From the NCBI RefSeq assembly GCF_018320785.1, contig NC_054876.1, forward strand, positions 9,986,712 to 10,050,711: DNA of 64,000 bases. The letters run 5' to 3'. This stretch comes from Cheilinus undulatus (taxonomy: Eukaryota; Chordata; Actinopteri; Labriformes; Labridae). Shown here one piece after another: positions 6,390 through 60,905 of this stretch (position 1 is the first letter of the stretch; every line of letters begins with the position of its first letter). Position numbers and translations under genes: made by a program. Under the pieces are notes generated by a model. It had not been told where the DNA came from and did no database searches. It saw only the letters and a list, made by a program, of their open reading frames with translations.

Positions 6390-9324
6390 ATTGCTACCAA
6401 AAAGAGATGTAAAGCCACTTTGTTAATTGCTATCTCAACTGCATAATAGACTGCCACTGAAAAGCATCACAAGCTTCACTGCTAAAATAGAAACTAGTCA
6501 GTTTTGAGGATTCATAGTAGATCCAGCTGTGATTGGGATACCTACAAGAAACCTCAGGAGGTTATGACTGATGACGTTTAGTGTATGCATTAATGCAGAA
6601 TCATCCGTGTCTGCATGATAATGCACAATAGAAATGATTGCTTTGAACAACCTCCCGATTCAGGTTAATATGTAGTTTGTTTTTTCCTACAATCATTAAG
6701 TTTCTATTTCTGTTATTATGGAAGGAAGAGATACTAATTTGTGTGAAAATCAGAGCTCATACCCATGTATAAACTAACAATTTAGCCAATTATTGATACC
6801 GAGACCAGTTATTTTGGCATAGCATCCCCATTGTGCCAACATTTCAGTTGTTGAGAAAACAATTCATTTTGTCAGACAGGTCAATCCTTCTGCCCTGTAG
6901 CATCATGTGATAATGTCGCATTTTCTAAGCCATTAAGTGGTTACGGTTAGGGCAAGGTAGTAGGGTAGGGCATACCTTGGAGCCCAAGCTAAATCCGATG
7001 GTTAGGGTTATTACAGAATGCGGCGTTATTACATAATGTGGCTTTACATGCCCTGTTAAAAAGTCTAATTTAGTTCAGTAGTTACGAGTGTTTGATGCCA
7101 GTAGTACATTGATCAAACACAGATAAACACTGGCTTTTGATTTCTGCCACATAATTATGCCTATGGCCGATGTTTGTCTGAAGTGCCAATATCTATCAAT
7201 ATGGATGTCAAACTGATGATTCAATGCACCCCTAGTGAAAACCTTAATCCTCACAGGGGTTTGCAAGCGAGGCTGCCATTTCCATCCATGTAATTAACAT
7301 TGTAGTACCTTAAAAGGTTAACAGTTTCCACAAAACTGTAGTTTTACTTGAGTTTTTTTTCTCTGTGGCTTCCCCGCTGCTTTGTTCAGTTTGTATTTCT
7401 TGTCCGTAACAAAGCACTTACATGCACCCCTTTGACTGGCAGCTCAAACATTTTTCGCTTGATGACCGGGTATTTTGCATGAAAGCACTTGAGACTGTCT
7501 GTAGTAGCTGTTGTATCTGCTGTGAGAGGCCGTCTGATTTTTGATGTCCAGTAAAACTGTCCAAAGTTTATGTTTGTTATCAGCAGGAATTTTATTGTCA
7601 TCCCTCTCAGGTCCTTTATTGCCTTGCCCTACTTTCGCTCTCTTTAATGAGAAGGTGAGATTGTTTGACATCAGGGATTGAGGTTCAACCACTGTGATGT
7701 CTTGATTATTTTTTCACACAAAGTAATTAATCAGACCATGTGGACCTTTCATTCTGCTTCTCCCTCCGTGTTTGACATGGACAGATAGATGGATAGTACA
7801 CTAATATTCATGAAGTTCTGCTCCATAAAGACAGAGAAATCTGTGCGCCTTCTAAAATTTTTAAAATATGCTTTTTGTGTATGCATAGAGACAGGGTTAA
7901 TCTATTATCCCTGCTATCTGAACGCTCCACTGGCTAATCCACTGCCCAGTAAGCAGCTTTTCCTCAGAGATCACAGCAGGTCAATCTGCCAGTTTAAGCT
8001 CGCTTTCATACTCATTTACTTTTAGTTGCTGTGGCAAGTTCAATGGGTCAGCGGTGTAGTTCTCATTAACTGATGAGTTACTTGCTTTATTTCTTATCAG
8101 CTATTTTATTTACTTATTATATGGCTTAACAACTCTGAGATCGGGTTCAAGGTAATAGATAATCAAGGCCAACCAGCAAAACATGCTTTCTTTTTTTCTC
8201 CTCTACTTTCTTTCTTCTTCTAGTGTATTTTTCTAATCATTTATTTCCCCTTTGTCTTATTTAATTTGTTTAATGCATTTCTAGATTGTAATATTATTTT
8301 ACAGCTGTTTTGTTTTGTATTTTGTTTTGTACTGTCCTGCACAATTGTTTTGGTAGATGGAAAAGGATTGAAAAAACAGACTAAAAGTTGCACAGCTGAA
8401 AAAAAAAAATAGAAGAGCATGCGGATGTGGTCTACAAAGGTAGAAAGGGGGCAACAAACACAGGAGTTTGACCTGTTAGTAAATATAAACCGCATGCTTT
8501 CTGGTATTTGCTTGTAAATTACACTGCAGGCTAGAACAAGAGGGTCCTGTAATTGCAGCACAATTAGTTTGTCTTTTTTCATACCCCAAAAACCAATTGA
8601 TTGATTGGTGCATAAGCATAATTTCAGTTGACAAAGTTTTTCTTTGGTTGACTGAAGGTCTAATGATGTATTTCTTGTGACCTTATAAGATAAAGCCTTT
8701 TATGAATTTAGAAAAATGTTTAATCAGTTAAGTCTATATCCTTTCTACAAAAAGGGATTCTATGTATTCAAATGGCAGTCGATAAAGTTCTCTTACCAAC
8801 TGGTATAAGCACTCAAGCACACGTCGATGTCCTTAATAGTATATCTTAATTATCATGAGCATGGTTTTAAAGTCGTAAAAGTATGAATAATGCAGCTATA
8901 TTCTCCAGTCAGTTTGTCATGAATACAGGATCTTTATTTTAAAGCTACACTGAAGTGTATGTTGCCATAGGTGTTAATTGTTTCGTGTGTTTTAAAATGC
9001 CCAATGCACCTGCTGCCTTGATATCAATTTCTTATTTCCTGCATTATAGTAACTGAATTCATTTAAAGAGAGACAGTTTTTTGACTAAAAGTAATGACTA
9101 GGTGCTTTCTAATTTGACTAAACTGGGCTGAAATGCTTTGAGGTTTTATAGACTAAGACTTGAACAAAGCCAGAAAGGATAAAATGGCTAAAATGTGACT
9201 AAAGTCTTGTCTGAAGAATGAGATTAAGATTGAATGTAAAACAGCAGCCAAAGTCATTACTAGTCTGTATCTTTCAGTCGCATTTCACTTGTTGACTCAT
9301 GTCTCTCTGTCTGTGTGAATGTAG
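6390..9324. other. No recognisable gene; probable EURL intron
   Basis: AT-rich noncoding sequence directly upstream of the first EURL exon found. The minus-strand frame at 8241-8582 and the frames around 7386-8025 resemble no known protein. The end of the stretch has a pyrimidine-rich tract and an AG at 9323-9324, consistent with a splice acceptor. Confidence 0.5.
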
Positions 9325-9828
9325 GCGTCTCCTCTGCCACCTTGTTGCACTCAAAGTCCCTGCGAGGCCACAGAGACTGCTTTGAGAAATGCCACCTCAT
9401 CGCCAACCAGAAGCTGTCACGTTCCAAGGTCTCCAGAAGTGCCTACGAGGGCATGAAGCTGGCCCTCAGCCAGAAACTGAACCGCATCATCCAGTATGCA
9501 CAGAACAAAGACCCCGTCTCCTCCAACGGCACCAGCAGACGGGGGGCCAAGCTGCTCTGTCTCAGCCAGCAGAGCGACTGCAAGCTGCTGCCCCAGTCAG
9601 ACGCACAGGTACCACGGTACGCCCCCCGCTGGGACACGTGCAAAGCTGCGGGGCTGCCTGATTACGCCATGGGGATGTTGGAGTGCCACACTGCGGAGGA
9701 GCTGGGGCTGCTGCAGGAGTCACAGTCTGATGTTTGGTCTAAAGATGGCAGGAAAGGTCTGCACAGCCGGAAACCATCATCAGGAGGACAGACACAGCAC
9801 AGATACCAGGGACACAGCAGAGATGAAT
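9325..9828 (+). CDS. eurl: EURL exon: conserved N-terminal-half domain
   Basis: The acceptor AG is at 9323-9324 and the donor is AAT|GTGAGA at 9829. The exon is entered with the first base of a glycine codon supplied upstream, and leaves in phase 1. The first 60 codons are the best-conserved block of the family. After that the sequence becomes serine- and glutamine-rich (linker) with a conserved VPRY motif followed by Trp. A second possible donor at 9609 (CAG|GTACCA) would shorten the exon, but the reading frame downstream still looks like EURL, so I prefer 9828. GC content is clearly higher than in the flanks. Confidence 0.85.
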
Positions 9829-12800
9829 GTGAGAACCAGTTCTTTAACCTTAGTTAATTGGTAGATGTCTGTGTTAAACTGAAGCCATAGTTGAAGTTTC
9901 ATTTCTTCTTATGTTGGAAGAACAATGTAGACAACATGATGGCGGCTTTCTCCTCTGTCTAGACATGTTCAGGGCAATATCTGATTTCTCGGAGAATTCA
10001 AAAACCTCTCAGCATTTATCTTTTAAAAGGCAGCAGACAAAACACAAGATGCATTCCTACCCAGTCTTCTTCTGTTGATATCTGCAGAGAAAAGCACACT
10101 TTCTTATAACCCTGAGCTGAGAAACAGAATGGTCTTCTTGTGTATCACCAGTACTAAAGCTTATTATGAGTGCAGTCTTCCCTAAAAGTCCCTTCTTCAG
10201 GTTCTTGAGTTTTAAATGAGATGATAGGCGTTTCACTGATACAGGTCTTAGATTAATTTGTATTCACATCTGTTCTAAAGCTCAAACACTTAATGTTCTG
10301 AGCACTTTAAACCTGCATATTTACAGGAAACTAATACAGTTTACAAGCTAAGGTATTAAAGGAATATGACAAGGATTCTGTATTTTAATTGGTAGGTACA
10401 CAACTTGTTATTAATATCAGCTGTTGTTACAGTAATCAGAGCTATGCTATAGGGACTCAGTTAATTAACATTAATATTGAGGCTGATATGATGACTGATA
10501 CCGTTTTTTTTTTTCAGGAACCATATGCATTTATTATGATGTGCAAAATGCAGCAAAAGCAAAATTGCATGACAGAAATTATGGAAAATAAACATATTAG
10601 CTCTAGCATGAATGAATGAGCTTCATTGTCATTATACAAATGGTACAATGAAATTCAGAATCAGCATATGAAATGGCACCAAGCAATACAGTAGCAGAAG
10701 GAAAACAGGAACTGATTCCATATACTCACTGTGTCAGTGGCACCCAAGCCTGAGTTTTGATTGGCTGCTACTCATATGACACCTAGCCAATCAGATTGGG
10801 TTGTATACAGGACATTATGTGAAAATAAAGCCAGAGGGGAAGACTCGCCTTGCAGTGTAGCCAGAGTAGTTCATTTTTGATTAATCAATTTCCTCCATAA
10901 CCGGCCATTATGCCAAATATCTGCCTCAGTAATCGGCCAGGCAGATAATTGGTCTACCCCTGATTAAAATTGCTCATCACTTGGTTGCACCAGCTATGTA
11001 ACTAAGTTCAAACACAACCTAGTTTGAAACAAAGTTTACAGTTTTAAGGTGTTGCACCTCTGAGATGGTTGAATGTAGGCTTGACTTACAGTTTTTAATT
11101 TTACACCTACCTACTAGTAGGTGTAAAGTCCTTCATATGATGTAATGGTCATGGGATATCATTTTGAAAGGGATAATTTAGAGAATCTCGAGGTACAGAG
11201 GGTTTTAGTTGGTGTTAGCTGTGTAGTGTCGTGATAAATAACATAATTTAAATAAATAATGAAACATTTTTGCTTCCAGTGAGTGAAGTTTATTTTAAAA
11301 TCAATCCACCAAAAGCATACCATTAAATTACTTTGTTATTTCGGTTTCACAGCCTGGATTGACTTGTTAGTTTTACACAGCAGCAAATAAAGGGTGAAGG
11401 CTTTAATTGTCAACAGTTGAATGTTTTGTCACATTTTGCGTATACTTCTGTTTGTGGATCAGTGGCTTTCAGCGCAGGTTGCTTCAGCTGTTTCAAAGAA
11501 AATTAGACATGAGATACTTCAACATAACAAAAACTCCATCAAAAAACTGCTTTTTACTGATTGGTCAAATGAACTGAAAACATAATTTTATAACAATATT
11601 TTGGTTAGTTTGAATACCACGCAGGATGCACCTTTGTTGTTAATGTATCATTGGACTAAAGTCCTGTTTTGTCGTAAACAGCTCCAGCTGTGGACATAGC
11701 GCATTTCGGTTCACATGGGCTGTCTGCTGCCTGTCTCCCTCGTTTACCAGGCTACATAATATCAGATTAAACACTAATAGAACTCGTCACTGGCCAGAGA
11801 CAAAAATTCACAAGAAGAAAAGAGGGGAAGGTTTTGCTCCTCTGCCTCACAACTCTTCCACCATCAGCAACGACAAGTGTTTTGATTGGTCAGATTTGTG
11901 CTCATTAGAGCGACACTTTGAAAAAATGGAACCAGTTAAAAAAAATATCAGCCACTGTTGTTGTGAAAACTTGCACTGATTTGTCACATGCTTGGAAAAA
12001 TATATTTCATGCTAACTATTGGCATGTTTAGTGTGCAAGAGCTTTCTTTAACTGTGTGCTTTTACATGTACTGCTGCAGTTTTGCTGAGCAGATTGCATC
12101 ATTAGGCTTTTAATTAAACTGTGGGTGGAAAGAAGTGTATGAATTGCTGCATCATGTAGATAAAATTAAGTTTATTTGTATAAGCTTTAACACATCAAAC
12201 ATGGGTCAACTGTCATAGCTTTCAAGGTAAAATACTTGAATATCGATATAATGCTTGAAAAGTGCTTCATTTCCATAATCTAGTGTAAAAATGACATCTA
12301 GAACTATGTAGCAACAATTAAAACCTTCATTTCCTTTCAGCCGAACCGTAAGTCATAAATCTGCCTGATCTCCTGTGTATACTCACAAAACATCAAAACA
12401 TCTGTACTCTAAGTGGGGAAAGCTGAAGAGCAGATGTTTTTACAACGGACACAGAGACCATGACGGAGCTGTGGCTGAGCCAGATGCTGTTTATGCTTAA
12501 TGTGATTAATTAAAACCTGTTTCTTTTCTTCCAGTGTCTAAAATGAGTGTGGATGAACTCCATCAGCTGAACACCCAGCTACTGATGCAGCTACAGAGTA
12601 AGTCCATTATTCTCTGTCTTTATTCAGTTGTGCATTGCAGTAACAGAACCCAAACTTTGACATAAAAGTTTGTATCATCAAGATTTTAAGCTGAACGTTG
12701 TTTGTTACCCCCAATCTGTAATGCTCCTGTCTAATAGATGCCCTTTATAGATTCATGTTGCCTCCAGGAGAAAGCAGAATTAGTACACTGTGTTTACACT

Positions 12801-15800
12801 TTTTATTACAAATTCAGAACAGAGGATATAAAAAAGCAGAGCTCATAAACACTCGAGGGCTTCTCTAGTCAACATCGTCTCCTCTCATGTGACAAGCTGC
12901 GTTGAATCAAGCTCTGTCTAGCGTTCACTGATGCATACCCCGCCTGTCTGTTCACTTCATTCTTCAACACTTAGACTCATTGTTTTCTACTCACAGCGAC
13001 AGATACACAACACGCATCTTCTCTTTTATTTTTTACATCTGTACATCAAGTATCCTGTAGATCCTGAGCAAGGCCATTAAAAGGACCCAATCATCATGTC
13101 ATCATGTTATTAGTTTAGGTTTCAGTGAGAGGTCAAATTAAACAAACTGTCACTTTGGCTAAATAACACCAGCTACTTCAAGTTCTCTTACCAGCTGAAG
13201 TCTTAGTCATCCTTCATGAGCTGTCAGTTCCACTAATAATCAGTGTTTTACATGGGACACATTAGGAAAATGTTGAAATGTCATACTTAGTTATAAAGGA
13301 AAAACACACATGACCAAGACATCTGTAATGTACAGTAGTGATTAATGGTTGCATGGAATTAGAAAGGGCTGCACAGTGTGGAGTTTGCATGTTCTCCCTT
13401 ATACATGTCTATCTCCCACAGTGCAGGGACACTCATACTAATGCTAATTGGTGACCGTAAATTGTCTGTAAATGTGAGCGTGAGCAATTTTTATATTCTG
13501 TTTTCAAACTATAATGAAGTAAATTCAAACTGTAGCTCATTTCAATATCTAAGGGTGCTTTCATACTTTAAGTGTTATGCTCAGTTGAAATGAGTGAAGT
13601 TCGCCTCGTTTGTGTGGTTTGTTTGCAAGGCAAGACAAGTTTATTTGTATAGCACATTTCAGCAACAAGACAATTCAAAGTGTTTCACACAGGAAATTGA
13701 ATACAATGACAACGGAAAAAAGAAACAAAAAAGAAACATTTTAAAAGAAAAATGTAAAAATCGATAAAAGCAGCAAATAAAACCCACAAAAGATAAAAAC
13801 AAAGATATTAAAGTAAAAGTTATAGTTGGAGTGAAAACAGAAAATTTTAAAGGTGATGAAGTGTTTTAGTCAAAGGCAGCATTGAACAGGTGTGTCTTCA
13901 GCCTTGATTTAAGAGAGCTCAGACTTTCAGCAGACCTGATGTTTTCTGGGATTTTGTTCCAGATATACAGAGCATAGAAACTGAACGCTGATTCTCCATG
14001 TTTAGTTCTGTCTCTGGGGACACAGAGCAGGCCTGCACCAGACAACCTGAGTGGTCTGGAAAGTTCATACTGGACTAGAAGGTCTCTGATGTATTTTGGT
14101 CTAAACCATTCAGAGCTTTATTAGCTAACAGGAGTATTTTTTTTTTTTTAAGTCTATTCTTTGAGAGACATGGAGCCAGAACAGGACTGATATGGTCCAC
14201 TCTCTTGGTCTTAGGGAGGACTTGAGCAGCAGCGTTTTGAATCAGCTGCAGCTGTCTGGTTGACTTTTTAGGCAGACCAGTAAAGATACTGTTGCAGTAG
14301 TCAACCCGACTAAAGATAAATGCATGGACAAATCTTCAAGGTCCTGCTGCAACATAGTCCTTTAATCCTAGACATATTCTTGAGGTGATAATAAGATAAC
14401 TTTGTAATTGTTGTTATGTGGTTTTTAAAATTCAGGTCTGAATCCATGACAACACCCAGATTTCTAGCCTGGTCTGAGGTTTTTAACTGTAGTGACTAGA
14501 GTTGCATGATGACTTTTAAACATTCCTCCTTGGGTCCAAAAACAACTATCTTAGGTTTTTTCTCTGTTTAACTGAAGAAAATTATGGCACATCCACTCGG
14601 TAATTTGTTCCATGCCTTTACCCAGTGCTTTTATGGGGCCATAGTCACCTAGAGACATTGAAATGTAGAGCCCTGTGTCATCTGCATAGTTATAGTAGTT
14701 TATTTTGGTGTTTTCTATGATCAGAGAAAGTGGAAGCATGTAGATGTTAAACAGAAGAGGCCCCAGGATGGAGCCTTAGGGAACCCCACATTTAGTTTTG
14801 GTCTGCTCAGATTTAAAGTTAGCTATTGACACAAAATAATCCCTGCCCTTTAAGTAGGATGCAGACCAATCAAAAACTGTGCCAGACAGTCCCACCCAGT
14901 TTTCCAGTCGGTCAAGTAATATATAGTGGTCAGCTGTGTCCAATACAACACTGAGATCCAATAACGCTAAAACTGAAGTTCTGCCATGATCAGTGTTTAA
15001 GCAAATGTCATTAAACACTTTGACCAAAGTGGTCTTGGTGCTGTGATGTGGTCTAAAACCTGACTGGAAGACAGGGCTGGACTGGCAGTCTGGCATACTG
15101 GGCATTTTCCTGGTGGGCTGACCTACTGTGGGGCCAGTATAATCTATTTCTTTTCATTTTTTGCTAAGCACTTGCCCATAGGGCAGGGGCAGTGGCCCAT
15201 TGGCTGTTTACTTTATAATGACAGTTTACTGGCCCAATCATGTGTCCTAAAGGTCCATTTATCGCCCCCCCTTCCCACTCTGCTCCAGCTTAGAAAGTGA
15301 AACTAAAGTGTCTGGAGGAAAACAAAACTATTCGCAAGAACAGTTAGATTGCGATTGGATACAGAAATAGTTGTCAAATTAGAACAAAAAACTGCTGAGA
15401 TGCACAAAACTTGTGCAGACTTTTTCATGATATTCCCCATTTTGTAACTAAAATACTGTGTTTTAAACTTTCAAACACACCATGTATTAAAATTATTAAT
15501 TGACGGAAGAATACTTCTTGCTGCTGAGATTTCAGTCTGGATTTGGTAGCCTTTTATATTTTGTTAAATCACTCTGAGTATCTGAAAAATGATGACTTGC
15601 AGACAGCAGACTTATTCATGTGAATAGCTGTTCATGTGCTGCTGACTTCCCCTTTTACTGTATGTCAATATGCTGATAAAACTGTGGGTTGATTTATTCG
15701 GTGTATAACCAGCTTTATGTGACCACTCAGAGTGATCTCCTTTGTCAGGGTTGGTGAAGAAACCCTAGGAAGCTTGAACTCACTTGCTAACCCCCAGGAG

Positions 15801-16600
15801 TGTGTACGTCATGGGTAGAGGGATGTTAAAGGCTTGACATCATTGATTAGCTCAACCTGGCGGCCTAGCAGTATCTCTGAGGTCTGACGGGGGCCTCCTG
15901 GCTGCCAGCCTCAGTAGAAAGATACTTACCTTCTGGGTCCTACAGCCTTTCCTGGGGGAGCGTGAACACAGACTCCAAACTTTTTAGAAGATTACAAGGT
16001 CCAATAAACAGCCTGGCTCTGAAAGTTTAGCTTATGCTTACTGTGTAAGGGTCCAAATGAAAGGTAAACTCAGACTGATTGGTCTTACTGAAGTAAGATT
16101 TTTATTATTAGTAGTGTTACTGGTTTGAAAGTTCAACAGCCTCTGATCTAGAGCAGAAAAATGACATTGATGAATGTGTCTTGGAGTCTTTTTCCCGAGT
16201 TCCACATCACTTAAATCCTTGATTGTAATTAGATTTTTCCTTATCTTACACAGATGCACTTTCTGTCATGTTGTCTTTGCCCTCTGCTCCTTCATTAATC
16301 TATAGTATTGATTCTCCTAATCTTGTTTGTCTCTGTAGTTTGTATGCCTTTTTATAAGTTGACCTTGTGACTGAATAAAACCGCAAATTCTCAATGTCTC
16401 TCTCCCTCTTTCTCTACATAGAGGTCTTTGAGGACCTGACCGTGGCCGTGCAGGAAAAAGACTCATTGGCGTCGGAGCTACATGTGCGTCACATCGCCAT
16501 CGAGCAGCTCTTCAAGAACTGTGCCAAACTGCCGTGGCTTCAGATCAGCAGGGCCGGAGTCAAAGCTAGCAGCAGTGGCAGCAGCGGCCCCGTGGAGTGA
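9325..16600 (+). CDS. eurl: EURL (C21orf91 homologue), 3' coding exons
   Basis: Three exons join in frame: 9325-9828, 12535-12597 and 16422-16600 (TGA at 16598-16600), giving 247 residues. This compares with about 297 for human EURL, so only the N-terminal exon or exons (about 45 residues, including the Cys-x-x-Cys motifs) are missing, upstream of the window. The first exon carries the family signature [20 protein letters not shown] and, further on, [12 protein letters not shown]. The last two exons form the conserved C-terminal coiled coil with [23 protein letters not shown] ('early undifferentiated retina and lens') is a vertebrate protein linked to neural development; its biochemical activity is poorly defined. 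On human chromosome 21 it neighbours BTG3, which is also the next conserved gene here. Splice sites are canonical and phases agree. The assignment rests on recalled family similarity; confidence is high. Confidence 0.92.
9829..12534 (+). other. EURL intron; nothing else recognised
   Basis: Bounded by GTGAGA at 9829 and CTTTTCTTCCAG ending at 12534. It contains a poly(T) run near 10505. A short block around 10880-10970 ('CTGCCTCAGTAATCGGCC') resembles the decayed hAT-like repeat seen at 57101-57450. No exon was seen. Confidence 0.6.
12535..12597 (+). CDS. eurl: EURL exon: start of C-terminal coiled coil
   Basis: A 63-bp exon with acceptor TTCTTCCAG before 12535 and donor ACAGA|GTAAGT at 12598. 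Joined to the previous exon it reads [20 protein letters not shown], a leucine-rich helix that aligns with the family's C-terminal coiled coil. Too short to stand alone; the frame continuity on both sides supports it. Confidence 0.88.
13373..13485 (+). repeat. Fragment of a common teleost dispersed repeat
   Basis: The text runs 'GTGGAGTTTGCATGTTCTCC' and later 'TAATTGGTGACCGTAAATTG'. The same order of blocks appears at 47850-48126 inside BTG3, in the same orientation. It is a well-known abundant fish repeat. Only the middle portion survives here. Confidence 0.6.
13627..15068 (-). mobile_element. L2-like LINE relic (reverse transcriptase and C-terminus)
   Basis: On the minus strand the reverse-transcriptase fingers/palm can be read from about 15068 to 14551. 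It includes [14 protein letters not shown], a GVP-stop-GSILGP site where PQGSILGP is expected, and the catalytic box [10 protein letters not shown]. The typical C-terminal portion ([20 protein letters not shown]) follows with frame breaks down to about 13880. The + strand start at 13627 (AAGGCAAGACAAGTTTATTT) is the element's 3' tail. The PQG codon has become a stop, so the copy is dead. It lies antisense in the last intron of EURL. The order of motifs and the YADD box point to the L2/CR1-like group rather than L1. Confidence 0.85.
15069..15300. repeat. Probable fragment of another dispersed repeat next to the LINE
   Basis: The sequence beginning GGGCTGGACTGGCAGTCTGG, with later GCAGGGGCAGTGGCCCATTG, has the look of a common fish hAT-like repeat end abutting the LINE. 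Borders are uncertain. Confidence 0.35.
16422..16600 (+). CDS. eurl: EURL last coding exon: coiled coil and C-terminus
   Basis: The acceptor TTTCTCTACATAG precedes 16422. Phase 1 joins to the previous exon as a lysine codon. The encoded [20 protein letters not shown] then [20 protein letters not shown] is nearly invariant in EURL proteins. The tail is serine/glycine-rich ([10 protein letters not shown]) and ends at TGA. Human EURL ends in a different short tail, so the last 15 residues are lineage-specific. Confidence 0.92.
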
Positions 16601-29610: not shown

Positions 29611-30124
29611 AGACACCTACAGACATCTGAGTCCCTCCACCCAGCAGAGATTTTAAGGGTACATGAGCGGAAAGTTCTCCTTACAGTTTAAAGGGAGCGT
29701 AGTGACTCACTGATCATTGAGACCGTCAGACACATTTTCTATCCATGCCCCCCTCAAAAATTGGTAAATTGTCCCTTTAATGGACATTGCTGGGTGATAT
29801 TAAAGAGACTGAATCACTCAAGAACCAACAGAACCGTCACTGTGTGACAGTCTAATGTTCTAGGGAAGCTTTTAGGCTGGTTCTCATTTTGGATGGGAGA
29901 ATTTCCATCCATGGTTTCAGTCCTGATGTGATCATTAAACAGTTAAAAAGCATCCTAACAGGATGTAGAAAAATGCCCTCATCAGAAGTGTACTGCTAGG
30001 TCTACAGTGTTACAGTTTGAGTTTAGTATTCTAGCACTCAGAAATTAATCAATCAGATGAACTCTAATCAAACAAATAAGAAGTGGTGTCTAACTAAATA
30101 ACATCGATCTTCTCTTATTTCCAG
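29611..30124. other. No recognisable gene; upstream intron of the FIIND-CARD gene
   Basis: No exon with an LRR, NACHT or B30.2 signature was seen. It ends in a pyrimidine-rich acceptor (CTCTTATTTCCAG), so transcription of the FIIND-CARD gene must begin further upstream. Confidence 0.45.
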
Positions 30125-30168
30125 GCTCCATCATCCTTCTCACCTAAAAAGACTGGCTCTACATACAG
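30125..30168 (+). CDS. FIIND gene exon: ZU5 lead-in
   Basis: A 44-bp exon, acceptor TTATTTCCAG and donor CATACAG|GTAATC. It encodes APSSFSPKKTGSTYR in phase with the next exon, giving the family motif TYRF-x-CP across the junction. Confidence 0.8.
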
Positions 30169-33100
30169 GTAATCTTATAAAAGGCTTTGTGTCTGTTAAA
30201 CATCAAAAATTCACGAACTGATGACTTGGTGAGTTTGAAGCAAAGCTCTGCCCTGTATAAAACTGTCAGCCGGTTAGTGCTACTGTGACACAAATATGAT
30301 ATGAAATTAAATCAAATGCAGATTTGAAAGTTATCAGGTCATGTGACCAGCAGGTCATTACATATAGTTGAAGAACTTGTATATTTGAAGAATTCAAACG
30401 TTCCTCCGTCTGATGTGTCTGTGTGAAAGGGTTGCATAAATCCAGACTGTTGGTGTTACAGGTTCATGTGTCCTGGTCAGGGTGTGTTCCAGTGTGCTTC
30501 CACTGGGCTGGTGTTTACTATGGAAAAGGAGGCGGAGCTTCAGTACAAGACTGTCAAATGGGATGAGGCTCTCCTCCAGTCAGCTGGCAAGGTGGCCGCA
30601 GGGCCGCTGTTTGACATCCAGTGTCCTGAAGAAGCTGTGTGTCAGGTCCGCCTCCCACACGGCGAATCAAAGGAAGGTAGAGTAAAGGCTGTCTTTAATG
30701 ATATATCACTGAAAATGCTAAATTAACATGTTTGAATTATCCTGCAGTGATCTGTTGGCCGAGTCTCTCTGCTGTCAAAGCCCTCTCATTTTCATTTTAA
30801 GTCAGCTAACCTCAACTGATTTGATTCAGTGCATAGTGGAATCATGCCGGGAGCTTTTCAGAGTAAAAGCATTCTGTACAAACAATGAGAGTTTCTCCAA
30901 AGAAATGCTAAACCAGACTTTTACCTCTAAAATCACGAACCAGAAGTGTCCTCGTACCCTGTTTATCATTCCTGTGACATGTTGTTAACCTGCAAACAAA
31001 CTGAAAGTAAAGACATGTCACGGCCAAGACGTGTATCTCACATGTCCAGTCTGAGATGGGCGTAAGAACGCCACCCCCCAGCAGTCTCAGCCTAAAGCAG
31101 CACAACAATGTTCTGGTCCAAGTCTGACCCAACCCTAACTCTACATTTTAACATTAGGAAAGTTTTAAACCTACTCTTAAAGGTAGAGAGGGTTTTTTAA
31201 AGGGCAGATGAATCCAAAGGAGAGGGTCCTGATAACTGAAGACCCTACCTCCTATACTACTTAGAGACTGAACTGACAACAATAAGACCATCATATTGGG
31301 AGCATAGTGTTTGAGAGGGGAAATATGTGGCACTATGAGCTCTATGGGGACATTTAGATCATTGAGATTCATTTGTCTGGTTGTTTGTATCCACATGAGT
31401 CACTACTGAAATAGGAGCTACTCTTCCTGGGGTCCAGACAAACACTAAAAATCCACATGGATTACATTTAAACAGTCCCAATGAAAATAAAAGGTAATAA
31501 GCAAAACAAATGTTTGAAATAACTATTAAATACCAGCACAGTAACATTTACAACTGACACTATTACAACCAAGTTCAATCCACTGGATTTCCAATAAGGT
31601 AATCTCTCATGTTCTCAAATCCAAATTCAGTTTGAATAAAAACCAACTTGAATTGTATGTTTCCTTATAAAACAGTGAGTACGGTACCTACACAATGACA
31701 CAGCGCTGCAGAACAAAGATAACCAGGAGATTGTACAGTGATGATCATGTGGATTGTCCAGAGCTGACATCAGGAGATAAATTCTGACTCTCAGTGGTAA
31801 CATACTCTAATCAAACCGCTCTGTTCTGTCCCAGGACTGCTTGTTGATGGAGGCTTGTCTGTTGTCAACATCACTGATGATGGGATGAGCTTCTTGGAGC
31901 CGTTGGAGATCACAGACACTCATGTGGTTGTGAAAGTCTCTCACCCATCCGCCTTTGGCCTGGTCTGGGATTTTTTTAAAAGGTTTCTGGGAAATTCCCT
32001 GCCAATAAACGGAGCAGTCCTGCTGTTCGTCCGACCTCTCACCATCAGGAAAAAAGTGCTCTATGTGTTTCTGGAGCCAGAAAACGTCGATAATGACAAG
32101 GTAAAACTTAGTGTCATATCTGTGGATTTCTCTAAATCAGATCATAAGCTTTGTATTGGGGTTCGGAAGAACCTCATGCCCCTTATTAATACATTTCCTC
32201 TGACACCTTTTTTCGAACGTTTGTTTTCTTCTCTGAAGCTCACTTATCAGCAGGATGGAGCAGCTAAAGTCAAGGCCTCTTCTAAATGTCTTCTCAGCTT
32301 TGGTCAGAATTACAGCGTCCACTGTGAAGCGGAGGACTTCCAAATTCAGCCAGAGGTGAGATAATCTCATTCACTTCTAATGGTTAGAAACAGATTCACC
32401 ATGAATATAATTTGGGCTCATATTATTAACAAACTCATTAATTGTCAGGCTTAAAGATTTCTTTAAGAAATTGGACAATAACAATTTGCTTTTATCTTTC
32501 CAGCATGAACAATTCCACATAAGCTATGGACCAAATTATTTCCCATCATTTGAAGTTTTCCTCCCAACAAACCAAGAGGAAGTGACACTGACAGTCCAGG
32601 ACCAAGACAGGAGAGAAGTCTGGAGATGTGATGTGTTTCTTGAAGGTAATGTGGCTCCATCCATCTCTCTTTGGGCCCTATAGTACACCTTGTACAACGA
32701 GTCTCGGTCTGCAGCATAGATAGGCATGACTCAGTATGAAATATCTCTAATGAGAGCCCAACAGAAGGGATCTCAAGTGCACAAAGATTACCTGATGTAA
32801 TATTATTTATTTAGTGATAAAATTCTGTAATACTGAAGAAATCAAGTGTGAAACAAAGGTCTTTTCTGTCTTTTCTTTCCAGGTTCAAGAAGAGAAACTC
32901 TGCCGAATATTGTTCCAGCAGAGGACAGGCTTCCTATAGGGGACCAGGCTCCAGCAGAGGACAGAGTCCCTATAGGGGACAGAGTCTCTGCAGAAGAGAG
33001 GCTTTTTTCAGCTAGGACAGAGTTCATCAAAAGAGTGTCAGATCCTGTTCTGGACCATCTCATAGACGGACTCCTGCAGGACGGTGTTATAAATGATGAA

Positions 33101-33244
33101 CAGAGGCAGTCCTTCCGCACCAAAGCCAGAGCAGACAAAGCTGCGGATGTGATTGATTCAGTGCGAGGAAAGGGGGCTGAAGCCCTGATCGCCTCTCTTT
33201 CTGAGGCGGATCCATGGCTTTGCAGAGCGCTGAACTTAAAATAA
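30125..33244 (+). CDS. FIIND (ZU5-UPA)-CARD protein, NLRP1/CARD8-like
   Basis: Six exons join in frame: 30125-30168, 30462-30676, 31835-32100, 32251-32355, 32504-32645 and 32883-33244 (TAA), 377 residues. All junctions are GT-AG with matching phases. Residues 14-85 are ZU5 (YRFMCP, GVFQC, TGLVF, GPLFDIQCPEEAVCQVRLPH). Residues 87-257 complete ZU5 and give UPA (ITDTHVVVKVSH, GQNYSVHC, YGPNYFPSFEVFL, EEVTLTVQDQD). A 12-residue repeat linker follows, then a CARD (about 297-376, ending GAEALIASLSEADPWLCRAL). FIIND-CARD proteins such as NLRP1 and CARD8 activate caspase-1 after FIIND self-cleavage and degradation of the N-terminal part. Here the expected Phe-Ser cleavage site reads Ala-Phe-Gly (Gly128), so cleavage is doubtful. 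The first exon has an acceptor, so more exons lie upstream; whether they encode NACHT/LRR is unknown. No such gene sits between EURL and BTG3 in human. Confidence 0.9.
30462..30676 (+). CDS. FIIND gene exon: ZU5 core
   Basis: Acceptor TGTTACAG and donor GGAAG|GTAGAG. It carries MCPGQGVFQCASTGLVFTME, then VKWDEALL and GPLFDIQCPEEAVCQVRLPH. The ZU5 hallmark 'GPLFDIQCPE' is intact. Confidence 0.9.
31835..32100 (+). CDS. FIIND gene exon: end of ZU5, cleavage region, start of UPA
   Basis: Acceptor CTGTTCTGTCCCAG. The donor at 32101 (GACAAG|GTAAAA) is my choice because it skips 150 bp that do not look like UPA. It encodes LSVVNITDDGMSFLEPLEIT, then the His-containing VSHPSAFGLVWDFFKR cleavage region. 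The glycine codon replacing the expected nucleophilic serine is 31957-31959. The UPA strand INGAVLLFVRPL follows. Confidence 0.82.
32251..32355 (+). CDS. FIIND gene exon: UPA middle
   Basis: The acceptor CTCACTTATCAG lies just before 32251, after a T-rich tract. The donor is CCAGAG|GTGAGA. It encodes KASSKCLLSFGQNYSVHCEA, the UPA 'GQNYS-x-HC' motif. Reading straight through from the previous exon is also possible without a stop (see findings). Confidence 0.8.
32504..32645 (+). CDS. FIIND gene exon: UPA C-terminal part
   Basis: Acceptor TTATCTTTCCAG and donor CTTGAAG|GTAATG. It encodes ISYGPNYFPSFEVFLPTNQE and VTLTVQDQDRREVW, the last UPA strands. Confidence 0.9.
32883..33244 (+). CDS. FIIND gene last exon: repeat linker and CARD
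   Basis: Acceptor TTTTCTTTCCAG. The first part encodes two and a half 12-residue repeats (PAEDRLPIGDQA, PAEDRVPIGDRV, SAEERLF). Then comes a CARD with helices recognisable in VSDPVLDHLIDGLLQDGVIN, RTKARADKAADVIDSVRGKG and ALIASLSEADPWLCRALNLK. It ends at TAA 33242-33244; an ATAAAA just after the stop may serve as a weak poly(A) signal. Confidence 0.9.
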
Positions 33245-33299
33245 AAACAAAGAAAGATTTGAGGGGTGTGATGATGTAAACAGCTGGCTGCTTTACAAT

Positions 33300-33593
33300 G
33301 AACCCTTTCAGTGTTGGAACCTTGAAATGAGATGGATAATATGAGGATGAAATACTCCCTCCACTGCAGGGTGCTGAATTATTTGGCTAAGGGGCAACAT
33401 AAAGATAAAGAATTCACTTGGGCCTAAAACTAAACTTTGTGGTAAACCACAGGTAATAGTAGAGGTAAAGGAGTGATGACCTGTGGTGACCACAAAAGTT
33501 CACTCTAAAAGATGAGAATAAAACCAGATAAGTGTAGTGTCCCTGATGCTCACCCAGTTTCTAAGAGGTTCAACTAAAACAGCAGGAACAACA
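33300..33593 (-). mobile_element. LINE relic (L2-like), first half
   Basis: The text resembles the L2-like element of 13627-15068 (for example the 'CACCCAGTTT', 'ATCAAAG' and 'ACCAGACTGGA' blocks). It resumes at about 34141 with GGCTGCACTGAGATCTCAAA after an inserted element. Too decayed for frames; antisense to the FIIND-CARD gene and just past its 3' end. Confidence 0.6.
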
Positions 33594-34500: not shown

Positions 34501-34750
34501 ACTTTTACATTTAATCTGTTATGTCTCACAACTTGATTATCAATCTGGCTGATTGAGTGATTTGATATGTTTTTCAATAAAACATTTTTTAAAACCATAT
34601 CGTAGCCTCTGGTTGGACTTTGTCACTAGAACCGTTAAAATACTTCAAATGTTCCCATTTCTTGTTGGATGGGGGGGGGGTCTTCTGACCAATCAAGGCC
34701 CCTTTTGGTGAGTCAAGATTCAAAGGGGGTTGATTAGAGTAGTAGAAGTA

Positions 34751-35944
34751 CACTATATTGCCAAAAGTATTCGCTCACCTGCCTTGACTCGTGAACTTAA
34801 GTGACATCCCATTCTTAATCCATAGGGTTTAATAAAAAACGTCGGTCCACTCTTTGCAGCTATAACAGCTTCAACTCTTCTGGGAAGGCATTCCACAAGG
34901 TTTAGGAGTGTGTCTAGGGGAATATTTGACCATTCTTCCAGAAGCACATTTGTGAGGTCACACACTGATGTTAGACAAGAAGGCCTGGCTCTCAGTCTCA
35001 GTAAGGTTGTGGTCAGGACTCTGTGCAGGCCAGTCAAGTTCATCCACACCAGACTCTCTCATCCATGTCTTTATGGACCTTGCTTTGTGCACTGGTGCAC
35101 AGTCATGTTGGAACAGGAAGGGGCCATCCCCAAACTGTTCCCACAAAGTTGGGAGCATGGAATTGTCCTAAATCTCTTGGTATGCTGAAGCATTCAGAGT
35201 TCCTTTCACTGGAACTAAGGGACCAAGCCCACCTCCTGAAAAAAAACCCCACACCATAATCCCCCCTCCACCAAACTTTACACTTGGCACAATGCAGTCA
35301 GACAAGCACCGTTCTCCTGGCAACTCCCAAACCCAGACTCATCCATCAGATTGCCAGATGGAGAAGATTCGCCACTCCAGAGAACGTGTCTCCACTGCTC
35401 TAGAGTCCAGTGGCGGCGTGCTTTACACCACTGCATCCGACGCTTTGCATTGCACTTGGTGATGTATGGCTTGGATGCAGCTGCTCGGCCATGGAAACCC
35501 ATTCCATGAAATTCTCTAGGCACTGTTCTTTAGCTAATCTGAAGACCACATGAAGCTTGGAGGTCTGTAGTGGTTGACTCTGCAGAAAGTTGGCGACCTC
35601 TGTGCACTATATGCCTCAGCATCCGCTGACCCCGCTCCTTCATTTTACATGGCCTATCACTTTGTGGCTGAGTTGCTGTCGTTCCCAATCACTTCCACTT
35701 TGTTTTAATACCACTGACAGTTGACTGTGGAATATTTAGGAGTTAGGAAATTTCATGATGGACAGGTTGCACAGGTGGCATCCTATCACAATACCACGCT
35801 GGAATTCACTGAGCTCCTGAGAGCGAGCAATTCTTTCACTAATGTTTGTAGAAACAGTCTGCATGCCTAGGTGCTTGATTTTATACACCCGTGGCCATGG
35901 AAGTGATTGGAACACCTGATTTCAATTATTTGGATGGTATAGTG
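34751..35944 (-). mobile_element. Tc1-like transposon, 1.19 kb, inactive
   Basis: Ends CACTATATTGCCAAAAGTAT (left) and, in reverse complement, CACTATACCATCCAAATAAT (right) are flanked by TA on both sides, the Tc1/mariner target. Minus-strand transposase text is broken by frameshifts: RRMQWCKARRHWTLEQWRHV, FLFQHDCAPVHKARSIKTWM, DWPAQSPDHNL, RVEAVIAAKSGPT. The first catalytic Asp is replaced (VLWSGESS, where WSDES is usual; codon at 35371-35373). The second Asp (QHDCAP) is kept, and the final Glu region is scrambled. Clearly dead. Confidence 0.9.
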
Positions 35945-36520
35945 TATGTTCAGCTCTGAGCATTTCTACAACATGTACGAGTGAGTAAGGAGCTGCAGGT
36001 TAGAGTCGGACAGGATTAAAACAGTCCTCGTAACTTTTCAATACTCAGTATTTTGTCCTGGAGCTCGTATCACAGTGTATATGATCATTAATAACAGACA
36101 ACTCTTTAAATCGATAATAGGTTTGATAAAACAAAGCGGCATCAAATATTATTCCCAAACATGTACATGTGACAAATATGCAAAATAAAAAGAAATCAGG
36201 GAGGAGGCTAATACTTCTCACAACTCTGTAACTTGAAATAAACTGATAAAAATAACAAAGATAATCCAGATTAATGGCCATTACAGCACTCAAAGGATTA
36301 GATGTTTTTTGAACTATGACTTTGGTATGAAAACATTAAGTAAAAAGCCTTGTTTACTGTAGACTTTGTTTCTCCACAATGTGAAAGTCTTCCAGTAATA
36401 TCTCCTTAAAAAATAAACTTGGTTGATTGTCAGGTTTTACGGTGATCTTACATCACCACAAGCAACCACTGTAACAAAAAAAAAAAAAAAAACACATTCT
36501 TGACGCCATGAGTCATAACT
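35945..36520. other. No recognisable gene; A-run at 36476-36493
   Basis: AT-rich sequence. The minus-strand frame at 36045-36293 is unlike any family I know. The A-run near 36480 may be the tail of an older retroposed sequence. Confidence 0.5.
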
Positions 36521-40374: not shown

Positions 40375-42487
40375 TCCTCACCTCTGCCTTTCCCTCTGCT
40401 TCTGTATCACCCTTGCCTCTCTTTCCCTCTTCTGTTGTAACACTCTCCCTGCTCTTTCTCTTTGCTTCTGCTCCTCTTAGGGCTGGACAATTAATTGCAA
40501 ATTAGATTGAATCACAATATGGCCTGCTGCAATTTTCAAATCACAAAAGGTGCAATATTTCTTTAACCTGAAATTTGTGTCAAAATATCAATTTAAGACT
40601 TTTTTTGCAGCAGAGACGTTATGCATTACATATCATCCAATCATTTGCGGTGCATTTTTAGAATAGTGTACAAAAAAAAAAATCCTATTTTCTTCATTTT
40701 TGTATTGTTTTCTTATTAAATATGAGAATTATATAATAATACAAAAGTTCATATCCAGTTTGAAAAATGAGTTGAAATCATCACAATTAGACATTTGATA
40801 TTAAAGTGTTCAACCCTAGTTTATTAATTAATATTGTGTTGGTTATAGTATGGAATGAATTATTGCTTGTTTTTTTGGAAAATACATGAGCTGAGAAACT
40901 TAAGAAATAATCATATATCAAATCGCAATATTGGGTTAAGAAATCTTAATTTTATTATTTTCCAGAAATCGTTCAGCCCTAGCTCCTCTCTCCTCCTACA
41001 CCCAACTCACTATATCTTCCTGTAATATTTTATCCATATGCTCCACTGTCCAATGCCATGTCAATTTTTTTTCTGCTGTTGCTCCCTCTTCTTTCCATCC
41101 ATCAGTATTGACTTAGTAGTCGCCCACTCTGTCTGCTTCTTGCTGTCCCTCTTCATCTGCTCCTGTATCTCCCCCTCTATTCACCTCAGCAGCCCCATTT
41201 CCTGTCTCACCTTCAACCACTCTGACTTCTTCATCCACTCACTTATTTCCTGTCCCTTTCTTTCCCTCTCCTCTTTCTTCTGAACAAAGTCTACTCCCTC
41301 TTCATTTTTCTTCCAAAGTCCCCTCTTTCTGATCTTTTCTTCTAAAGCTCCCCACAGCTTTGATGATGTTGTCTCTGCTGTGTTCCATGTACCAGAGCTT
41401 CAGTCTGGAAATGATGACCTGTCTCCCTCTCTCCTCTCTTTCCCTCTGCTCGTGTTTCTCCTCCTTCTCCCAACCCATGTCTTCCTGTAACCCTCCATCT
41501 ATAACCTCCTCTTTTCCCATCTCCTCCTTGCTCTCACTCTTTTCCATCTCCTGGCTCTCCCTTTCTGCCTGCTCCTGGCTCTACCTCTTTTCTTGCTCCT
41601 TTCTGTCCCATTTTTCCTGCATCTGTCTATCCCTCTCTATCTGCTCCTATGTCTGCTCCTCTATCCACCTTTCCTGTGTCTCCTTTATCCACTCAATCAA
41701 CTCCTCCCTCTCTCTCCCTGCTCCTGTCTCTCCTTCTGTCCCATACTATCCTGTTCCCAAATCCTTCTCCTGTCCACCCTCTCCTTGCTCTCCTCTCTTT
41801 CCCTCTGCTCCTGTTTCTCCTCCTGCTCCCAACCCTCTGTGTCTTCCTGTAACCCTCCATCTATATCCTCTTCTCTTCCCATCTCCTCCTTGCTCTCCCT
41901 CTCTGCCTGCTCCTGGCTCTCCCTCTTTTCTTGCTCCTTTCTGTCCCATTTTTCCTGCATCGGTCTGTCCCTCTCTATCTGCTCCTATGTCTGCCTCTCT
42001 AGTAACCTCTGCAGCCACCTTCCCTGTCTCCTTTATCCACTCAGTTATATCCTGTCCCTCTCTCTCTCTTCCATGGTCTTGTCTCTCCTCCTGCATCTGT
42101 CCCATATTATCCTGTTCACTCCTTTTCCTGTACATCCTTTCCTCTCTTTCCCTCTCCTTTTTGTCCCATTCTTCCCAAATCCTTCTATCCCTCTATCAGC
42201 AACTGTATGTCTCCCTCCATCCACCTTAGCAGCCCCATTTTCTGTCACCTTCAACCACTCTGACAGCTCATCCATCTTCTTCATCCACTCAATTATTTCT
42301 TGTCTCTTTCTGCTCCTGTCCTTCACTGTCCTCCTGCTCCTGTCTCTCCTTCTTCTCCCTCCTATGCCTCTCCTCTGACTCCTGTCTTAGTCCCTTCTCC
42401 TTCCTGATCTATTCTTTTAAAGCTTCCTGTTCCCTCTCCTCCCTCCTGCTCCTTCGCCTCTCTCTGTCATCTCCTGTCCTTTCATTC

Positions 42488-46210: not shown

Positions 46211-46244
46211 AGGCTGTCTGGAAGTAATGAAACATATGTGAAAT

Positions 46245-46417
46245 ATGAGGAGAGAAATAGCAGCTGTGGTGTTTTTCCTGAAGAGGCTTGTGAAAAGAGG
46301 GGAGAAGTTGGAGTCAGAGAAGGTGGAGCTGTTTGTTGAGAGGCTGGCTGTCGCTCTGCAGGAGAAGTTCAAGGGTCATTGGTACCCTGAAAACCCAAGC
46401 AAAGGACAGGCATATAG
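46245..46417 (+). CDS. btg3: BTG3 first coding exon
   Basis: The exon starts at 46211 after TTCTTACAG, with 34 bp of 5'UTR. The donor is CATATAG|GTACTG at 46418. It encodes the two N-terminal helices and most of box A, leaving an arginine codon split (phase 2). Confidence 0.93.
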
Positions 46418-48461
46418 GTACTGGACACCCCGCATTTTATGTCTTTTCACTGATGTGTACAGGTGCGGGGCCATTTACCTCAACTTGTTTCTGTGTGTTC
46501 TACAGGTGTATCCGTGTGAACCGGTTTCACAGGCAGGATCCAGAGCTTCTTCGGGCCTGCCATGAGAGCGGTGTTCAGTACAGGGACCTCGGACTGCCTC
46601 GTGAACTCACATTGTGGGTGGACCCTGGGGAGGTCTGCTGCAGGTGAGATTTCATCGCCATGTATTCTGTTGTTGTAGCAGTTAAGATGTTGTAGATTGC
46701 AGCTCTAGGATATTATAGATAACAGCATGACAGAGTTTACATTGCATAAAAAAAATCACCAAACAAAAGAGGCAGTTTTGCTGGGAAGTCTACAATGTCT
46801 TCACTGGAATTACAGAAAAAATGAGCACCTAAGATAATGATTGATGCTGGTTTCCAAAATTTGGTATTAATTTTGTATTGTAGACCTTTAACAATGTTGG
46901 ACATTTCTCACTGTTTTGGACTCTCTTTCTGTAGATATGGAGAACAGAACCCTTGCTTCTCAGTGGCCAGTTTCTCTAATGATGAGGAGGAGGACAAAGA
47001 TGTTGCAAAGAAGGTGACGAGCGCTTTGGAGAGGGTGACGTCAGACTATCACTCAGGTTCTTCATCTGATGAGGAGGGCATGCGCACCTCCCCCCTCACT
47101 GTTCCCAACAGCCGCTGTACTAAACAGGTACTTTTAAATACACTTCAGTGTTACAGAAGCTTCTAGGCAGGTTAATAAAAGAATGGCTCGCATGGGTCTC
47201 TTATGAACTTTAATGCATCGATGCTATGGTCTGTTTTTGACACTGTGTTTGCTTTTATCCCCTATATATTCTTTATATCCTTGGAATAATTGGGAGTAAT
47301 ATCCAAAGTACAGAGTAGAACAGTGATACTCAGCTGGTGGGTCAAGACCCAAAAGTGGGTTGCAGAACTGTATTCTTTGGGTTGCAGATGCATGCTTGAA
47401 TGGGAAAAGTAACCATTTATTGCAAGAAGAGATGAATTAGTTGAAAAATTGATCAAACATTTAAATTTACTGAATTTCACAGTATAACAGGGTAAAATAA
47501 AAGGTATCAATGCATGCCCAATTAGGACTTCAGGACTTTTGTCGCCATGTTTTTTTCAGACACCTAGGTGCGACCCACTTTTGGGTCCTGACCCACCAGT
47601 TGAGAACCACTGCATTAGGAGATGCACAAGCATATCAGCTCAATATTAATATAAGCTGGGGATTCACAATATAACTGGAATGATGTTGGTATCGGCAGAT
47701 GTGAACATTTCTGCTAATATTAACAGCTGATATTTTAGTTTTAAAGATCTCCCTTGAAATGCGTTAAGTGAGCCTCACACTACACGATAATTGTGCCAGT
47801 GGTTCTTAGAGATGCCTCACAGCAAGAAGGTTTCTTGTTGTACCACTCAGGGCCTTTCTGTGCAGTTTTCATGTTCTCCCCATGCGCGGGTGGGTTCTCT
47901 CCGGGTACTCCAGCTTCCTCCCACCACCAAATAAATGCTTGTTAGTATATTTGGTGACTCTAAATTGGCTGAGTGTGCCTGGTTGTCTTTCTCTTTATGC
48001 CAGCCCTGCTGTTGACTGGTGACCAGCCCAGGGTGAACCCCGCCTCTCACCCAGTGACAGCTGGGATAGGCTCTAGCCCCCTGTGACCCCAAACGACATA
48101 AGCAGTGTAGAAAATGGATTGATGGACATTTTAGAGGTTCAAATTTTTCAAGAATCTGGTTCTGTTGAGGTTGTGTTGGTGGATCCTGACTGGTCTAGAA
48201 CAAGCATTTCCTATGATGCAGTTAATGATAGCCTTTTATTAATTCTTTTATTTTTGTTTTTAGACAATGAATCCTGCAGCTCCTACATGGCATCCGAAGA
48301 AGATGGTTCCAGGGAAAGGTCACATGGTTCCCCGGCCTCAGTACACATTCAGGCCTCGCAGCAGAGCTCCTCACACTTTAAGGCACACCCTGTGGGTCCC
48401 TCCAGGCCACCATGGAGGATACTGGGACACAAACCCACATCTGGCACACTGTTACAGTTAG
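46245..48461 (+). CDS. btg3: BTG3, BTG/Tob-family anti-proliferative protein
   Basis: Four coding exons: 46245-46417, 46506-46643, 46935-47127 and 48264-48461 (TAG), 233 residues (human BTG3 is about 250). The ATG is the first in the exon that begins at 46211 and opens [18 protein letters not shown], as in BTG3. The BTG domain spans about residues 1-115. Box A includes [19 protein letters not shown] and box [21 protein letters not shown], the surface that binds CNOT7/CNOT8 deadenylases. An acidic block with [12 protein letters not shown] (about 140-151) and the C-terminal WVPPG motif distinguish BTG3 from BTG1/2/4 and Tob. BTG3 links deadenylation and cell-cycle restraint; in mammals it also binds E2F1 and is p53-responsive. 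The middle of the C-terminal region is shorter than in human. EURL upstream matches human chromosome 21 synteny. Confidence 0.95.
46506..46643 (+). CDS. btg3: BTG3 second coding exon
   Basis: Acceptor TTCTACAG and donor CTGCAG|GTGAGA. It encodes [20 protein letters not shown] through box [13 protein letters not shown], and leaves another split arginine codon. Confidence 0.94.
46935..47127 (+). CDS. btg3: BTG3 third coding exon
   Basis: Acceptor CTTTCTGTAG and donor AAACAG|GTACTT. It encodes [13 protein letters not shown] (end of the BTG domain), the acidic [12 protein letters not shown], and the BTG3-specific [15 protein letters not shown]. Confidence 0.93.
47321..47612. mobile_element. hAT-type MITE, 292 bp, in BTG3 intron
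   Basis: Long inverted ends: CAGTGATACTCAGCTGGTGG then GTCAAGACCCAAAAGTGGG on the left; CCCACTTTTGGGTCCTGACC then CACCAGTTGAGAACCACTG on the right. About 35 bp pair. Flanks GAGTAGAA and CATTAGGA agree at only 5 of 8, so the insertion is old. A shorter piece of the same family begins at about 49489. Confidence 0.85.
47850..48126 (+). repeat. Abundant teleost dispersed repeat in BTG3 intron
   Basis: Blocks TGCAGTTTTCATGTTCTCCC, TGGTGACTCTAAATTGGC, GGGTGAACCCCGCCTCTCAC and GATAGGCTCTAGCCCCCTGT, ending with a decayed GGATTGATGG tail, are the hallmark order of a very common fish repeat. The same family supplies 13373-13485. Confidence 0.75.
48264..48461 (+). CDS. btg3: BTG3 last exon
   Basis: Acceptor TTTTGTTTTTAG. 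Phase 0 reading gives [20 protein letters not shown], a basic/proline-rich middle ([18 protein letters not shown]), then [19 protein letters not shown], matching the BTG3 C-terminus. An alternative frame in the same exon reads through but has no family resemblance. Confidence 0.92.
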   Translation, partial: TMNPAAPTWHPKKMVPGKGHMVPRPQYTFRPRSRAPHTLRHTLWVPPGHHGGYWDTNPHLAHCYS

Positions 48462-60539: not shown

Positions 60540-60905
60540 ACAATTATAACCTCTTTTTAACTTGTTTTGGACTCTTTGGTTACGGTTCGTATTAACCATC
60601 TCTTAAGTTTGCTATCAATTTCCCTCTTGCAGCCACGTTCAGGGAGGTTGGCTACCTTAAATTCCTGAATAATATTTTCAACTGTAGTCACAGGAACATC
60701 AGGCAGCTTGGAGGTAGTCTTATAACCTTTACCTTTAACATGCTGGTCTATAATTTTCTTTCTAATCTCCTGGGACAACTGTCTCCTTAGCTTTCTGTGA
60801 TCCATGTTTAGTGTGGTTCATACCATGATACCAAACAAAGATGATTCTGTTGAACCATAACTCAAAAGCAATGTCTGATTTTCATTAGTTGTCCACTTGT
60901 GTATG
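60540..60905 (-). mobile_element. Tc1-like transposon fragment (DNA-binding domain)
   Basis: On the minus strand 60805-60557 encodes LRRQLSQEIRKKIIDQHVKG, KGYKTTSKLPDVPVTTVENI and IQEFK, the first helix-turn-helix domain of a Tc1-like transposase, followed by a KLKRWLIRTVTK second-domain start. The frame opens with an MDHRKLR start. The catalytic domain and terminal repeats are missing. Confidence 0.85.

Follow-up and report, generated by a model that had tools for sequence, protein, structure and literature searches.

Can the FIIND encoded at this locus of Cheilinus undulatus cleave itself? A first-pass annotation of the stretch of DNA analysed here (64,000 nucleotides, hereafter the window) had answered that it cannot by the usual chemistry, on the ground that a Gly stands where the nucleophilic Ser should be. 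Our analysis replaces this false claim of a lost nucleophile by a testable one, namely that the Ser is intact and that the changed residues are the P1 anchor and the partners of the Ser in the catalytic triad.

A FIIND-CARD gene on the + strand

Judged from its sequence, the window has on its + strand a FIIND (ZU5-UPA)-CARD gene of the CARD8/NLRP1-C-terminus type, with recognisable exons at 30125-33244 (Table 1). The reading frame is open over six exons, encodes 381 residues up to a TAA codon, and is interrupted by introns with AG/GT ends. In Pfam searches, query residues 1-122 match FIIND (PF13553; 139.3 bits vs a curated cut-off of 25.8, E = 7.3e-41) and residues 130-244 match UPA-FIIND (PF23679; 90.2 bits vs a curated cut-off of 27, E = 1.8e-25). 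The UPA is followed by a C-terminal CARD (PF00619; residues 289-364, 30.6 bits vs a cut-off of 23.9, E = 3.5e-7), which also matches the CARDs of caspase-1 and ICEBERG. The best solved relatives by sequence (phmmer) are rat NLRP1 (7crw, E = 4.1e-9) and CARD8 (7jkq, E = 5.1e-9). In the window, tblastn gave no further FIIND copy, the best other match having E = 0.78, and blastn of 30001-33300 returned only the self-match at E up to 1e-3.

The intron at 32101-32238 has 138 bases, a length divisible by three, and is without an in-frame stop, so that the ORF at 31801-32364 spans it; if retained, it would add 46 residues inside the UPA without a frameshift. The linker between UPA and CARD contains an 18-base tandem repeat (32923-32982; 3.3 copies, 65% matches) that reads as PAEDR(L/V)PIGD repeats.

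Table 1. Positions of the FIIND-CARD gene, its cleavage-site residues and neighbouring features in the window
Feature	Position	Strand	Basis
Probable short exon ahead of FIIND (APSSFSPKKTGSTY plus AG from the next codon)	30125..30168	+	Inferred: open, AG/GT flanks, phase fits next exon; lies beyond the homology matches
Exon, first half of ZU5 subdomain	30462..30676	+	AG/GT flanks; Pfam FIIND; NLRP1/CARD8 alignment
Conserved His of L-P-H (CARD8 His-252 equivalent)	30658-30660	+	NLRP1/CARD8 alignment
Exon with the second ZU5 half, the cleavage region and the first part of UPA	31835..32100	+	AG/GT flanks; Pfam; PDB alignments
Asn (AAC) at catalytic His position (CARD8 His-270, NLRP1 His-1186)	31867-31869	+	Alignment; Pfam probes
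Leu (TTG) at triad Glu position (CARD8 Glu-279, NLRP1 Glu-1195)	31894-31896	+	Alignment; a Glu one residue on leaves some doubt
His (CAC) at P2, as in the PIDD/Nup98 HFS motif; NLRP1/CARD8 have Ser	31942-31944	+	Alignment; PMC3210808
Pro (CCA) at P1, where self-cleaving FIINDs have Phe	31945-31947	+	Alignment; Pfam probes
Predicted nucleophile Ser (TCC), kept (CARD8 Ser-297, NLRP1 Ser-1213 equivalent)	31948-31950	+	Alignment; Ser best of 5 residues tried (Pfam)
Gly (GGC), conserved P4' Gly three residues past the nucleophile	31957-31959	+	Present in human NLRP1, CARD8 and rat NLRP1; best of 3 residues tried (Pfam)
Exon, UPA subdomain	32239..32355	+	AG/GT flanks; Pfam UPA-FIIND
Exon, end of UPA subdomain	32504..32645	+	AG/GT flanks; Pfam UPA-FIIND
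Last exon: repeat-bearing linker, CARD (about 33005-33232), TAA stop	32883..33244	+	AG acceptor, stop; Pfam CARD
EURL exon, upstream of FIIND-CARD gene	9264-9854	+	Pfam 1.6e-58
EURL exon, upstream of FIIND-CARD gene	16379-16597	+	Pfam 1.5e-25
BTG exon, downstream of FIIND-CARD gene	46242-46562		Pfam 1.3e-19
Reverse-transcriptase fragment, RVT_1	14554-14775	-	Pfam 33.5 bits vs cut-off 29.6
Sleeping Beauty-type transposase HTH	60560-60817	-	Pfam 55 bits vs cut-off 43

The gene lies between exons of EURL (C21orf91-like) and of a BTG-family gene and, as far as the window was scanned, not in an NLR cluster; BTG3 and C21orf91/EURL are presumably neighbours in human too. Pfam matches above cut-off were obtained for 5 of the 20 ORFs scanned, these being the two EURL exons, the BTG exon, the RVT_1 fragment and the Sleeping Beauty-type HTH. 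The Rfam gathering search and the tRNA scan of the window gave 0 matches, and the Tc1-type-looking region at 34600-36100 contains no inverted repeats of at least 20 bases. Long overlapping low-complexity ORFs occupy 41333-42378, Ser/Leu/Pro-rich on the + strand and Glu/Arg-rich on the - strand, and resemble an array of degenerate repeats more than they do coding sequence.

Register of the cleavage site

The phmmer alignments to NLRP1 and CARD8 are ungapped from the position of the triad His to past the cleavage site. Specifically, S-H-P-S-A-F-G of the window pairs gap-free with P-S-F/S-P-L-G of human NLRP1 (the slash marks the cut), and equally so with P-S-F/S-L-M-G of CARD8 and P-S-F/S-P-M-G of rat NLRP1. 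H-P-S (31942-31950) thereby falls on the S-F/S of NLRP1 and CARD8, and A-F-G falls on P-L-G, L-M-G or P-M-G. The ungapped BLOSUM62 scores of this register are 27 with human NLRP1 and 18 with both CARD8 and rat NLRP1, and all 12 of the other registers between -6 and +6 score negatively with each of the three references. CARD8 and NLRP1 residue numbers given throughout were obtained from the aligned reference sequences by counting back, with Phe-296 and Phe-1212 as starting points.

The first-pass annotation had placed the site three residues further on, at A-F-G-L-V-W (GCC TTT GGC CTG GTC TGG, 31951-31968), with the Gly codon at 31957-31959 standing in for the nucleophilic Ser and a His lying four residues ahead of that Phe. 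What it read there is correct to the letter, the motif does belong to an exon of a genuine FIIND gene, and a Phe-Gly pair does exist at that place. However, the +3 register scores -29, -19 and -31 with human NLRP1, CARD8 and rat NLRP1, respectively, and a Ser introduced at that Gly lowers the Pfam FIIND score (139.5 bits, a loss of 3.1; Ala gives 139.7). Because the phmmer alignment, the register scores and the Pfam probes all place the nucleophilic Ser at 31948-31950, we reject the replacement of Ser by Gly, which is very improbable and is best described as a three-residue misalignment; an alignment with mammalian FIINDs, which the annotation had itself proposed as a check, contradicts it. 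The register with this Ser as nucleophile is, on the same evidence, almost certainly the right one.

Changed residues around the retained Ser

Among the features of self-cleaving FIINDs, the window has the nucleophilic Ser and lacks the Phe at P1, the catalytic His and the triad Glu. Mutagenesis of CARD8 has shown that S297A abolished cleavage, that F296H was severely defective, that His-252 and His-270 are crucial and that E279A significantly reduced cleavage (PMC3210808), and the catalytic triad of NLRP1 is E1195-H1186-S1213 (PMC9700037). Substitutions by Pro and Asn are not among the mutants described in the available part of PMC3210808.

We scored 29 single-residue variants at 8 positions on the Pfam FIIND model, where the wild type obtains 142.6 bits and where differences express the preferences of the model. 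At the nucleophilic Ser every replacement tried scored lower (Ala 139.3, a loss of 3.3 bits; Gly 138.6; Thr 139.5; Cys 139.7), and replacing the Phe at 31954 gave 139.6 with Ser and 141.1 with Leu. At P1 the opposite is seen, as the wild-type Pro is the lowest of the 12 residues tried: Phe reaches 147.2 (a gain of 4.6 bits), followed by Leu (145.6), Met (145.0), Val (144.7), Ile (144.5), Tyr and Thr (144.2 each), Ala (143.9), Ser (143.6), His (143.5) and Lys (142.9). His and Ser at P2 are scored alike (142.6 vs 142.5). At the triad His position, His is the best of 8 residues (146.6, a gain of 4.0 bits) and the other seven, including Asn, lie between 142.0 and 142.8. A change from Leu to Glu at the triad Glu position adds only 0.9 bit and this position is therefore less telling. 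Loss of the CARD8 His-252 equivalent costs 6.7 bits. Thus, the model favours Ser at the window Ser, Gly at the window Gly and Phe or Leu at the window Pro. As to the suggestion of the first-pass annotation that the variant may be shared across fish, the preference of the model for His, Phe/Leu and Ser at the respective positions makes it less likely that the exact combination seen here is usual in the family. A search for relatives of the 88-residue exon in two collections of contigs that are not intended to include fish confirmed none, either among 20 pattern matches in viral contigs or among 289 in genome contigs. Fish FIINDs commonly carry H-L-S and then x-F-G, and the rank of Leu as the second-best P1 residue on the Pfam model would fit this.

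Comparison with known systems shows where the window protein departs from them. Human CARD8 has the same ZU5-UPA-CARD order, the nucleophilic Ser, the Gly three residues on and the L-P-H His, but differs in having SF/S where HP/S is found here, His-270 in place of Asn and Glu-279 in place of Leu. The C-terminal FIIND-CARD of human and rat NLRP1, the rat protein being the top match, shares the FIIND register, whereas the window differs by the three substitutions at P1, triad His and triad Glu and has no NACHT or LRR nearby in the ORFs scanned. The ZU5-UPA of UNC5b is, to our knowledge, not cleaved. Like the window protein, UNC5b carries a ZU5-UPA module with a P1 residue other than Phe, in its case Leu-677 (PMC3210808), but it is a membrane receptor with a death domain and no CARD.

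Predicted loss of self-cleavage and its alternatives

The self-cleavage of this protein is probably weak or absent, since two elements seem to be missing, the buried P1 Phe, which puts strain on the scissile bond, and the base needed to activate the Ser. Taken together, the aligned register and weak or absent self-cleavage make up a reading that we consider likely on balance. The conclusion of the first-pass annotation therefore remains plausible, by way of Pro, Asn and Leu, whereas its premise of a lost Ser does not hold. With the Phe anchor and the activating base lost, the protein would be expected to stay full length, and N-terminal degradation would then be unable to release UPA-CARD. Counting against lost cleavage is the retention of both the nucleophilic Ser and the structural His-252 equivalent, and the P2 His, which PIDD and Nup98 also have in their cleaving HFS motif, means that some activity is possible.

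An alternative built on these retained residues is that slow self-cleavage persists at the Pro/Ser bond, with the P2 His replacing the lost triad His in a GAIN-like H-X-S arrangement. The H-P-S of the window fits H-X-S, GAIN domains use the His of H-X-S/T as their base (PMC13062082), and the HF/S sites of PIDD and Nup98, which share the P2 His and the Ser nucleophile with the window, are cut autoproteolytically (PMC3210808); those two proteins nevertheless have a buried Phe at P1 where Pro is found here, and Pro is the poorest P1 residue of the 12 on the Pfam model. Moreover, S295A and S295Q in CARD8 and H862A and H862Q in Nup98 had little or no effect on cleavage (PMC3210808), which indicates that neither of those relatives uses P2 as its main base. 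Nor does H-X-S suffice alone, as the GAIN domain of the adhesion GPCR BAI2 has H-X-S at its site in the form of HLS and resists cleavage, a resistance tied to the missing aromatic partner of the His (PMC13062082), although GAIN and FIIND are unrelated folds from different cell compartments. We regard persistent cleavage by the P2 His as unlikely.

The same three changed functional residues could instead reflect decay: the gene may be on its way to loss, or be a piece of a larger NLR, with selection no longer acting on its FIIND. A start exon was not found, and none of the 8 ORFs scanned, out of 74 upstream + strand ORFs of at least 45 residues at about 16.5-30.46 kb, has a Pfam match to NACHT, to LRR or to the GBP GTPase domain (PF02263) that lies upstream in GBP-FIIND-CARD proteins of fish such as the zebrafish Gbp4 type; stop-to-stop ORFs of at least 200 residues are absent from 1-31000. 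The locus may accordingly be a pseudogene or may be missing its N-terminal domains. Against decay, every recognised exon is open up to the stop codon and has AG/GT splice sites, and both FIIND and UPA are matched strongly. This makes decay quite an improbable account of the locus.

A possible role for a non-releasing FIIND-CARD

If self-cleavage is indeed weak or absent, our best reading of the role, which we hold tentatively and by analogy, is that of a non-releasing FIIND-CARD that damps inflammasomes. Such a protein could act mainly by binding the UPA-CARD that paralogous FIIND proteins release, perhaps jointly with DPP9, and would not act as an inflammasome starter. The first-pass annotation had also offered a constitutive adaptor. 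That role fits poorly and we reject it in favour of a damper, because full-length NLRP1 made resistant to cleavage did not drive ASC speck formation but inhibited it (PMC11760013). The same paper describes the FL-CT and NT-CT complexes of NLRP1 and CARD8 as autoinhibitory. It also reports that DPP9 binding was lost in human NLRP1 S1213A, indicating that an uncleaved FIIND need not form a DPP9 complex, whereas cleavage-site mutations in mouse NLRP1b, rat NLRP1 and CARD8 left DPP9 binding intact (PMC11760013).

It is doubtful, though worth stating, that the protein embodies one of two departures from NLRP1 and CARD8. One would be a swapped general base, with a slow Pro/Ser cut that releases UPA-CARD on a clock unlike theirs, and the other a FIIND-CARD that does not cleave and is dedicated to restraining the UPA-CARD fragments of its paralogues. 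A non-exhaustive literature search found no self-cleavage test of any fish FIIND, and a 2025 review, in the part available, describes the structure of FIIND in fish as not identified (PMC12436146). If the window protein is a naturally non-releasing FIIND-CARD, this would mean that fish keep uncleaved members of the family as regulators, and it would separate cleavage from capture by the full-length protein in nature rather than by way of mutants.
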